Positions 26,948 to 29,489 of a stretch of DNA of 44,022 nt are shown here, in pieces. Where the stretch lies: the NCBI GenBank assembly GCA_012522835.1, contig JAAYJR010000596.1, positions 1 to 44,022 on the forward strand. Direction: 5' to 3'. The notes beneath the pieces were generated by a model. That model saw nothing but the letters and a program-made list of their open reading frames with translations. It did no database searches and had not been told where the DNA came from. The translations under genes were made by a program, and so were the position numbers. How positions within the stretch are numbered: position 1 is the stretch's first letter; every line of letters begins with the position of its first letter. Origin of the DNA: Bacteroidales bacterium (GTDB lineage: Bacteria > Bacteroidota > Bacteroidia > Bacteroidales > Prolixibacteraceae).

Positions 26948-27859
26948 TTAATATAGGTCGGGTATGGAGAGGTATCTTTCGCCATGGTCATATGCAAAAG
27001 TCATTATTCGCGACCCTTCTGGAATTTCTTTAATCTTTTTTGCTACGGCTGCAAGTGAGGCTCCTGAAGATATTCCTATAAATAAACCTTCCAGCTTTGC
27101 AGCTTTTTTTGCATATTCAAATGCCTCCTCCTTCGAAACAGTTATGGTTCCGTCGAGTAGTTCTGTTTTGAGGTTGTCGGGTATGAAACCTGCTCCTATT
27201 CCCTGGATTTTATGAGGCCCCGGCTGGCCACCGCCGATTACAGGACTATCGGACGGTTCGACAGCAAAAACTTTAAGCCCGGGGAATTCTTTTTTGAGCA
27301 CTTCAGCTGTACCGCTTATATGGCCGCCTGTGCCCACTCCGGAGATCAGATAATCCAGTCCGTCGGGAAAATCATGCAAGATCTCTGTTGCCGTTTTTTT
27401 TCGGTGAACGTCAATATTTGACGGGTTTGAAAATTGAAGGGGAATCCACGAATTCCTGATCTCCGATGCCAGCTCCCTGGCTTTGTCAATTGAGCCGTTC
27501 ATTCCCTGTTCTTTAGGAGTAAGCACCAGTTCTGCCCCCAAAGCATTCAATACCCTGCGCCTTTCCATTGTCATAGATTCGGGCATGGTCAGAATTAGCC
27601 GGTAACCCTTTACAGCAGCAACCAGTGCAAGTCCGATGCCTGTATTTCCCGAAGTGGGTTCTATTATCACTGAACCGGGTTTTAATATTCCTGCTTTTTC
27701 TGCATCTTCTACCATTGATTGGGCGATTCTGTCTTTGATGCTCCCTCCCGGGTTGGTCTTTTCTACTTTTACCCAAACTTCGTAGCCGGCAGGATAGAGC
27801 CGGTTGATCCTTACATGGGGTGTGTTCCCGATAGTCTCTAAAATGTTATTTGCCTTCAT
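26948..27859 (-). CDS. cysK: Cysteine synthase A (O-acetylserine sulfhydrylase)
   Basis: A 303-aa PLP enzyme making cysteine from O-acetylserine and sulfide. The PLP lysine is in NPGGSIKDR, the substrate loop is [10 protein letters not shown], the phosphate-binding loop is [11 protein letters not shown], and FIGISSGAS is near the C terminus. Its start lies 16 nt after the U-run of an intrinsic terminator, which is itself preceded by a Cys-rich leader ORF. Expression is therefore likely controlled by attenuation that senses charged tRNA-Cys (see the leader entries). Confidence 0.96.
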
Positions 27860-27875
27860 ATGATTAAAATTAATT

Positions 27876-27904
27876 AAAAAAAAACCTTCCGATTTAAGGA
27901 AGGC
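27876..27904 (-). terminator. Leader terminator (attenuator) of cysK
   Basis: On the minus strand CCTTCC, loop TTAAATC, GGAAGG, then nine Ts. Upstream A residues extend the stem against the T-run. It stands between the leader ORF stop (27930) and the cysK ATG (27859). It could also end the ABC-transporter transcript, but its position 16 nt before cysK implies that cysK transcripts must pass through it. Confidence 0.85.
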
Positions 27905-27929
27905 TTTTTCATGTAAATATTATTCTCAT

Positions 27930-28001
27930 TTAAAATATGAAAAACACCCTCCTGTCTGTCATAAGACAGCAACAAATCATAGTATTTATGGTGTTATTCA
28001 T
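27930..28001 (-). CDS. Candidate cysteine leader peptide of cysK
   Basis: A 23-codon ORF, ATG to TAA, too short for the track. Residues 9-15 read ICCCLMT, with three consecutive Cys codons TGT TGC TGT. AGGA lies about 9 nt before its ATG. A CTGTC-TTAT-GACAG hairpin begins in the Cys codons. The AGGAGGGT inside the ORF (27953-27946) can pair with GCCTTCCT (27904-27897), the 5' arm of the terminator. This is the architecture of a ribosome-mediated attenuator: stalling at Cys codons frees AGGAGGGT to block the terminator; efficient translation masks it. The peptide itself need have no function. No clear promoter was found upstream. Confidence 0.65.
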   Translation of the reverse strand: MNNTINTMICCCLMTDRRVFFIF

Positions 28002-28112: not shown

Positions 28113-29489
28113 TTAAAATTTATATAAATAATAAGGATTCTTTTGTAAATTATTATATCTGATCCATTTTATCAGTTCTTTTAATGTGATCTTTTTACCA
28201 TATAGCAATAATCCTGTTTTGTATATTTTTGCAGCAATCCATATTGCCCCGGCTGTGGTTATTAACAGGAGAAACATTGAAAGCAGAAGTTCCCATACCG
28301 GTATTTCATAAGGTATCCGTGCCAGCATAGCAACCGGTGAGGTAAAGGGAATTATTGACCCCCAGAATGCAACCGGGCCTTCAGGGTTTCTGGCAATAGG
28401 GAAGAGGAGCATAATGGAAAGGATCAGGGGAAGGGTTATAGGGAATACAAGTTGCTGTGAATCTTCATCATTATCGACTGCTGCACCGACTGCACCCAGA
28501 AGGGAGCTATACAAAAGATAACCTGCGAGAAAATAAAATATAAATGAAAAAATGATAAGTCCGATATTTAAATTCCCAATCATTTCAAGTGTTTCTGTTA
28601 AGATTGCCTGATCGGCAAGCTGGGAGGTCTGGTTATTTAAATATTGTTGATTCTCCATAATACTTTGTCCCATACCTGTGGCATTTTCAGAAATCAGAAG
28701 TCCAGGTACCAGTACCATAGCAACGGATCCTATGACTACCCAAATGGCTACCTGCGTAAGGCCTACAAGGGCTGTCCCGATAATTTTGCCGGCCATTAAC
28801 TGAATAGGTTTTACAGAGGATATTATAACTTCCACTATTCGCGATTTTTTCTCCTCCATCACGCTGCGCATGACCATTGAACCATACATAAATACAAAAA
28901 AGTATATCAGGAACCCCATGGAGTAACTTGCAATGAACGCTATTTCCGACGAGCTTTTAGTAGTTTCTCCTGTCTCAGTAACTTTAAGAGTATGCAGCTT
29001 AACAGGGGTCCGGGTGGAGGCAAGCCGGTCCTCAAGATCCGGGATTCCGGTTTCCGATATTATTATTTTTCGCTTATCGCTCTCGATCAGGTTGCTGAGC
29101 TTCATCTCAATCTGTTCGGTCAATTCAATGGGTATCTGTTTTTCTGATATCAGTTGTGCATTGCCGGTTGAATAAATATTATCCGGAATATAAAGGAGTG
29201 CATAAAACTCACTCTCTTTGAGGTTTGACTTTGCCTTTTCAAATTCTGACAAAGGCATAAAATGGAATTTTGTAAAACCATCTTTATCATCAAGAGCTCC
29301 GGTGAAAAGGGTTGATGCATCATAAACAGCAATTAAACGCTCCTGTTTATCTGTCTTTACAGTGAGCCATATCATTAATGCAAACATCCCGGCAAAAAGT
29401 AAGGGTACCAGCAATGTTAAGATAATGAAGGATTTTCTGGTTACTCTTTTCAGATATTCTTGTTTCAGTATCAATAGCGTCTTGTTCAT
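28113..29489 (-). CDS. ABC-2 type transporter permease, NatB-like
   Basis: A 458-aa inner-membrane permease. It has one N-terminal TM (SFIILTLLVPLLFAGMFALMIW), a large extracytoplasmic domain of about 130 residues, then at least five TM segments in the C-terminal half. The MRSVMEEKKSRIVEVIISS coupling-helix signature marks NatB/ABC-2 exporters. It forms an exporter with the ATPase whose gene ends 5 nt upstream. The substrate (Na+ in NatAB, otherwise peptide or drug) is unknown. Confidence 0.88.
   Translation of the reverse strand: MNKTLLILKQEYLKRVTRKSFIILTLLVPLLFAGMFALMIWLTVKTDKQERLIAVYDASTLFTGALDDKDGFTKFHFMPLSEFEKAKSNLKESEFYALLYIPDNIYSTGNAQLISEKQIPIELTEQIEMKLSNLIESDKRKIIISETGIPDLEDRLASTRTPVKLHTLKVTETGETTKSSSEIAFIASYSMGFLIYFFVFMYGSMVMRSVMEEKKSRIVEVIISSVKPIQLMAGKIIGTALVGLTQVAIWVVIGSVAMVLVPGLLISENATGMGQSIMENQQYLNNQTSQLADQAILTETLEMIGNLNIGLIIFSFIFYFLAGYLLYSSLLGAVGAAVDNDEDSQQLVFPITLPLILSIMLLFPIARNPEGPVAFWGSIIPFTSPVAMLARIPYEIPVWELLLSMFLLLITTAGAIWIAAKIYKTGLLLYGKKITLKELIKWIRYNNLQKNPYYLYKF

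Follow-up and report, generated by a model that had tools for sequence, protein, structure and literature searches.

The cysK gene in the window, a stretch of 44,022 nucleotides of Prolixibacteraceae DNA, is preceded by a leader that is in all likelihood a ribosome-mediated transcription attenuator sensing charged tRNA-Cys. Judged from sequence comparison, this leader very probably turns cysK on under cysteine shortage. The sequences of the window and its relatives show the parts of the leader, how these are spaced and conserved, and that two of its segments co-vary; these features are described below together with the mechanism that they suggest.

Anatomy of the cysK leader

The features of the leader are collected in Table 1. 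The identity of the downstream gene is secure, with a TIGR01139 score of 399 bits against a cut-off of 351. An earlier note on this DNA had described a 23-codon upstream open reading frame (uORF) with three Cys codons in a row, an intrinsic terminator ending 16 nt before cysK, and an 8-bp alternative pairing of 27953-27946 with 27904-27897. The uORF and the terminator are indeed found at the positions that the note had given. The pairing of AGGAGGGT with GCCTTCCT also holds (8 pairs, 2 of them G-U), but the note understated the helix, which when folded alone extends to 16 bp with one bulge. The start of segment 2 lies 12 nt past the last Cys codon, and 11 sense codons separate the Cys run from the stop. 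The leader region of 201 nt gave a folding z of -2.7 against shuffles. A search of the whole window with Rfam at gathering scores returned two tRNAs only, and a T-box or SAM-type riboswitch upstream of cysK was not found.

Table 1. Features of the cysK leader and their positions in the window
Feature	Position	Strand	Remarks
Leader-peptide uORF MNNTINTMICCCLMTDRRVFFIF	27930..28001	-	23 codons and TAA; equivalents in 72 distinct leaders
Consecutive Cys codons TGT TGC TGT, proposed sensor	27966..27974	-	
CTGTC-TTAT-GACAG hairpin (segments 1:2), starting in the last Cys codons	27956..27969	-	-5.3 kcal/mol
Antiterminator 5' element AGGAGGGT (segment 2)	27946..27953	-	co-variation with the terminator 5' arm across relatives
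Extended antiterminator helix, 5' half	27937..27953	-	partner 27912-27897; -15.6 kcal/mol
GCCTTCCT (segment 3), common to the terminator 5' arm and the antiterminator	27897..27904	-	
Intrinsic terminator hairpin AAAGCCTTCC-N7-GGAAGGTTTT (segments 3:4)	27881..27907	-	-11.8 kcal/mol; kept in 72 leaders
Terminator U9 tract, overlapping the hairpin	27876..27884	-	ending 16 nt before the cysK ATG
cysK, cysteine synthase A, 303 aa, proposed regulated gene	26948..27859	-	NCBIfam TIGR01139 and PALP

We infer from this arrangement that the uORF is translated, that ribosomes can stall within it, that cysteine is the signal and that the steps are timed as follows. When cysteine is ample, the lead ribosome would pass the three Cys codons and get to the purine element and the stop codon. 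Segment 2 (AGGAGGGT...) would thereby stay occupied by the ribosome while RNA polymerase makes segment 4, the terminator 3:4 would form, and the transcript would end about 17 nt short of cysK. When Cys-tRNA is scarce, the ribosome would stall on the Cys codons with its leading edge short of segment 2, which would then capture segment 3 as the antiterminator, and the polymerase would read into cysK.

The energetics of the competing structures are of note. When each is folded by itself, the antiterminator exceeds the terminator hairpin in stability (-15.6 versus -11.8 kcal/mol). In the full-length window leader with the Cys region masked, the terminator together with an alternative hairpin was still the minimum-free-energy structure (-19.9 versus -16.2 kcal/mol), and the terminator also remained the outcome of the fold with segment 2 masked. 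Since the minimum-free-energy fold keeps the terminator despite masking of the Cys region, antitermination would have to be kinetic, which is also the case in the classic attenuators. The hairpin 1:2 over the Cys codons, to which the note had drawn attention, is present in the window and is seen in most of the leaders of relatives. It was no better there than in shuffles (mean z -0.5), and we do not claim it as more than a possible protector or pause hairpin.

Conservation of the leader and co-variation of segments 2 and 3

Upstream regions of cysK were gathered by protein homology and not by the presence of a leader. The closest relatives of the window's gene belong to Prolixibacteraceae (Mariniphaga, Maribellus, Draconibacterium). 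A short uORF that starts with ATG and has Cys codons next to, or almost next to, each other was found in 82 of 143 regions of the window's cysK type, a set that includes many distant homologues devoid of the leader, compared to 3.3% of dinucleotide shuffles. Both Cys uORF and terminator were present in 73 distinct leaders; one weak case was dropped and the remaining 72, including that of the window, were aligned. They fall into 44 clusters at 75% identity, from about 15 genera of Prolixibacteraceae and a few sources outside the family. All 72 have a run of 2-5 Cys codons (exactly 3 in 52 leaders, at least 3 in a row in 59), a conservation that is partly selected because the detector demanded two adjacent Cys codons, the unselected figure being the 82 of 143. 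The uORF varies from 19 to 33 codons, and its peptide drifts beyond the Cys run, while an intrinsic terminator stands between uORF and cysK throughout. The alignment that the earlier note had called for thus shows the Cys codons, the terminator and compensatory changes (below) to be kept as the peptide drifts.

The spacing of the parts is likewise maintained. The distance from the last Cys codon to the segment-2 element has a median of 14 nt (IQR 13-16), and that from the element to the stop codon has a median of 13 nt (10-17). Given the size of a ribosome footprint, the former distance would leave the antiterminator element free with a ribosome on the sensor codons. The median distance from U-tract to cysK start is 45 nt. 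A -7-like element (TAnnTTG and variants) precedes 70 of the 72 uORFs, with a median distance of 13 nt to the ATG, and occurs in 29% of mononucleotide shuffles. For comparison with the leaderless uORFs of mycobacterial poly-Cys leaders, the element lies 12 nt or less before the ATG in 35 of the 70 leaders, and about 45 nt before it in the window, where the promoter is a loose motif match.

The leader is not universal for this gene. All sampled genomes of genus g7 (L100, L105, L244, L262, L266, L268, L271, L272) have this type of cysK without a Cys leader, and cysK genes outside the family mostly have neither Cys uORF nor terminator. In some genomes of g18 (L098, L241, L250) the terminator before cysK is kept and the Cys uORF is absent; in L098 the terminator is directly behind the stop of the upstream gene.

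Segment 2 corresponds across relatives to a purine motif (element 2, GGAAGG/AGGAGG-like) complementary to the terminator 5' arm. Relative to the Cys codons it is found in each of the three reading frames (29/21/20), and selection is therefore on the RNA and not on the peptide. The element resembles a Shine-Dalgarno sequence, located inside an open frame, and Bacteroidota ribosomes make little use of Shine-Dalgarno pairing.

In an independent MAFFT alignment the 2:3 register showed 87.5% of cells paired and 33 cells with double change. In slid registers the paired share was 40-73%, and cells with double change numbered no more than 26. Permutation of whole arms gave a mean of 12 double-change cells, and none of 1,000 permutations reached 33; the counts of pair types and of pairs showing double change for 2:3 in this alignment were not above permuted values. 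Kinship was limited by taking one representative for each of the 44 clusters. For these, the native partner gave -14.2 kcal/mol versus -11.5 for swapped partners (0 of 20,000 permutations), with a mean z of -2.8 against shuffled element-2 regions. Compensatory pairs of segments 2 and 3 include GGAAGG/CCTTCC, GGAAAG/CTTTCC, GCAGAAAGG/CCTTTCTGC and AUAGAAGGC/GCCTTCAU. The window's own pair is no better than swapped partners (-12.3 versus -12.5 kcal/mol). At 16 loci from other sulfur genes or other branches, which are phylogenetically non-independent with eight coming from the OsmC/type-B group, the native pair gave -16.8 versus -12.2 kcal/mol for swapped partners (0 of 20,000). As far as sequence comparison can tell, the alternative helix that excludes the terminator is maintained by compensatory change. 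Conservation and 2:3 co-variation in relatives thus support the logic of leader-peptide attenuation that the note had proposed for cysteine synthase.

These observations bear on a simpler account, by which the hairpin and U-tract only terminate an upstream ABC-transporter operon and the Cys-rich frame is a coincidence. An ABC permease gene on the same strand does end at 28113, upstream of the leader, and L243 joins the g18 loci above in having a terminator without a matching Cys uORF. The account leaves unexplained the Cys uORF frequency and the frequency of the -7-like element, both well above those of the respective shuffles, the co-variation of the uORF element with the terminator arm, and the same plan in front of unrelated sulfur operons (see below). 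We consider it extremely unlikely, and as the sole explanation it was rejected on uORF enrichment, co-variation and recurrence at sulfur operons.

Cys leaders before other sulfur genes

A family-wide pattern scan, followed by inspection, revealed the same leader plan before other sulfur genes in Prolixibacteraceae. In one group the genes encode OsmC, followed by a cysteine synthase/CBS-like enzyme and MetB-/MetY-type enzymes. The uORFs are of the kind of MCCCMFFKHVEGDAVLL, and the element GUGGAGGG pairs with CCCUUCAC. uORFs resembling MCCCMxxxHVEG were seen before OsmC-cysteine synthase/CBS-MetB or MetY operons of the family in L280-L284, L290-L292 and L176, the Cys leader of L176 being directly before a type-B cysteine synthase. 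In L281 a single operon carries a tandem of Cys-leader attenuators that differ from each other (positions 50 and 465), the second directly before a CBS-like gene and with the pair GUGAAAGG/CCUUUCAC. The second group comprises a small DUF2061-like gene (assigned by eye), siroheme synthase and CysJ, with the element UGCAGAAGG pairing with CCUUCUGCA. Here a Cys-leader attenuator was observed before siroheme synthase and CysJ in L285 and L286, the DUF2061-like gene coming first in L285.

A stricter pattern, which required the terminator arms as well, was run over 393 genomes of the phylum. It returned nine matches including that of the window, and a reversed control pattern returned 3. Five of the other eight matches are a Cys uORF with a terminator, all outside class Bacteroidia: before cysK in L306 and L308, before a sulfite/nitrite reductase in L309, before a membrane gene, a thioredoxin-like gene and a MetY-type gene in L311, and before an unknown gene in L310. 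A scan of the order added cysK (L312) and cysE-cysK (L314) in other families. Three of the nine phylum matches (L304, L305, L307) and one of four from the order (L313) had no ATG-started Cys uORF, were apparently coding and were dropped. In the window's own genome the cysK leader was the sole match to the stricter pattern; other matches to looser patterns (three TGY codons in a row and T6), which weaker copies could escape, were not leader-like.

With one exception, the genes downstream of Cys leaders belong to cysteine or sulfur metabolism. The note had proposed an attenuator of cysteine synthase; this is supported for cysK, but such leaders are confined neither to cysK nor to Prolixibacteraceae. 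The evidence is evenly poised on a broader proposal, that Bacteroidota have a phylum-wide cysteine regulon (cysK, cysE, sulfite reduction/siroheme, OsmC-CBS-MetB/MetY and thioredoxin-MetY) controlled by Cys-codon attenuators, without a transcription factor, and built from RNA parts with fast turnover and tandem copies.

The nature of these targets also informs on the signal. A translated leader could in principle stall in response to thiol oxidation, to metal on the nascent Cys cluster or to an antibiotic. Consecutive Cys residues could bind metal or oxidise, and other leader peptides act as arrest peptides. In contrast to arrest peptides, the residues flanking the Cys run vary, and the targets (cysteine synthase, serine acetyltransferase, sulfite reduction, Met/Cys PLP enzymes) are the expected cysteine regulon. 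A signal other than tRNA charging is thus very unlikely, and sensing of charged tRNA-Cys is preferred.

Known attenuators and the biology of Bacteroidota

The classic ribosome-mediated attenuators are the trp, his, leu, ilv, thr and pheA leaders of Proteobacteria. The cysK leader resembles these in having a short uORF with codons for the amino acid whose synthesis is controlled, a biosynthesis gene of that amino acid downstream, and an antiterminator and an intrinsic terminator that are mutually exclusive. It differs in being cysteine-specific, in its occurrence in Bacteroidota, in placing the purine antiterminator element inside the uORF, and in the lack of a supported 1:2 protector.

Two cysteine cases are also known. 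In the uORFC-8-2 motif before cysS in Rhodobacterales, a pair of Cys codons stands in tandem within the uORF; the motif also has stems and a run of U that would fit an intrinsic terminator, and Cys-tRNA sensing has been proposed for it (PMC8632094). Compared by description, the motif shares these elements with the cysK leader, whereas it is alphaproteobacterial and controls cysteinyl-tRNA synthetase rather than cysteine synthesis. In the leaders of mycobacterial cys operons the Cys codons are close to the stop of the uORF, and a terminator is not conserved (PMC1262725); such poly-Cys leaders are also a subject of Canestrari et al. 2020. They share with the cysK leader a short uORF in which Cys codons follow one another, a position ahead of cysteine or sulfur genes, and a proposed response to cysteine. 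In contrast, the window has a terminator and its 11 sense codons after the Cys run, and the antiterminator of cysK leaders co-varies across relatives.

The mycobacterial leaders raise the question of whether control is exerted through translation or Rho, as proposed for them, instead of intrinsic termination. Their lack of conserved terminators lends itself to this view (PMC1262725), as do the type-B cysK leaders L165, L171, L174 and L182, in which poly-Cys is at or beside the stop and no clear hairpin is found. These four loci (genera g4 and g16 of the same family) also have a pyrimidine-rich tract; they resemble the mycobacterial leaders and are possibly Rho-dependent. In the window and its relatives, however, a hairpin and a U-tract are present, and the 5' arm of this hairpin co-varies with the element in the uORF. 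For these leaders a mechanism based on translation or Rho is exceedingly improbable, and intrinsic termination under ribosome control remains the preferred reading.

Within the phylum, a study of Flavobacterium psychrophilum reported 'strong clues' that operons of amino-acid biosynthesis are preceded by leader-peptide attenuators, and the passages of its main text that bear on them name no cysteine case (PMC9723704). Candidates in Bacteroidota receive general mention in PMC9723704 and PMC7366714. The note knew of no described case for the phylum, and we likewise found no cysteine attenuator in Bacteroidota in the freely readable literature, so that priority is not certain. The cysteine-specific attenuator is apparently undescribed in Bacteroidota. 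The kind is already known, ribosome-mediated attenuation being old and Cys-specific versions having been described in mycobacteria and Rhodobacterales; the reach of cysteine attenuators is wider than expected.

Bacteroidota are one of the dominant phyla in gut, soil and sea. We know of no established cysteine regulator of the CysB, CymR or S-box type in them. Conserved cysteine-sensing attenuators would answer, in a directly testable manner, the question of how cysteine and sulfur assimilation are regulated in this phylum. Attenuators need a ribosome close behind RNA polymerase, and such leaders would thus be a natural reporter of transcription-translation coupling; if the phylum-wide regulon is true, close coupling of the two processes in Bacteroidota would be implied.
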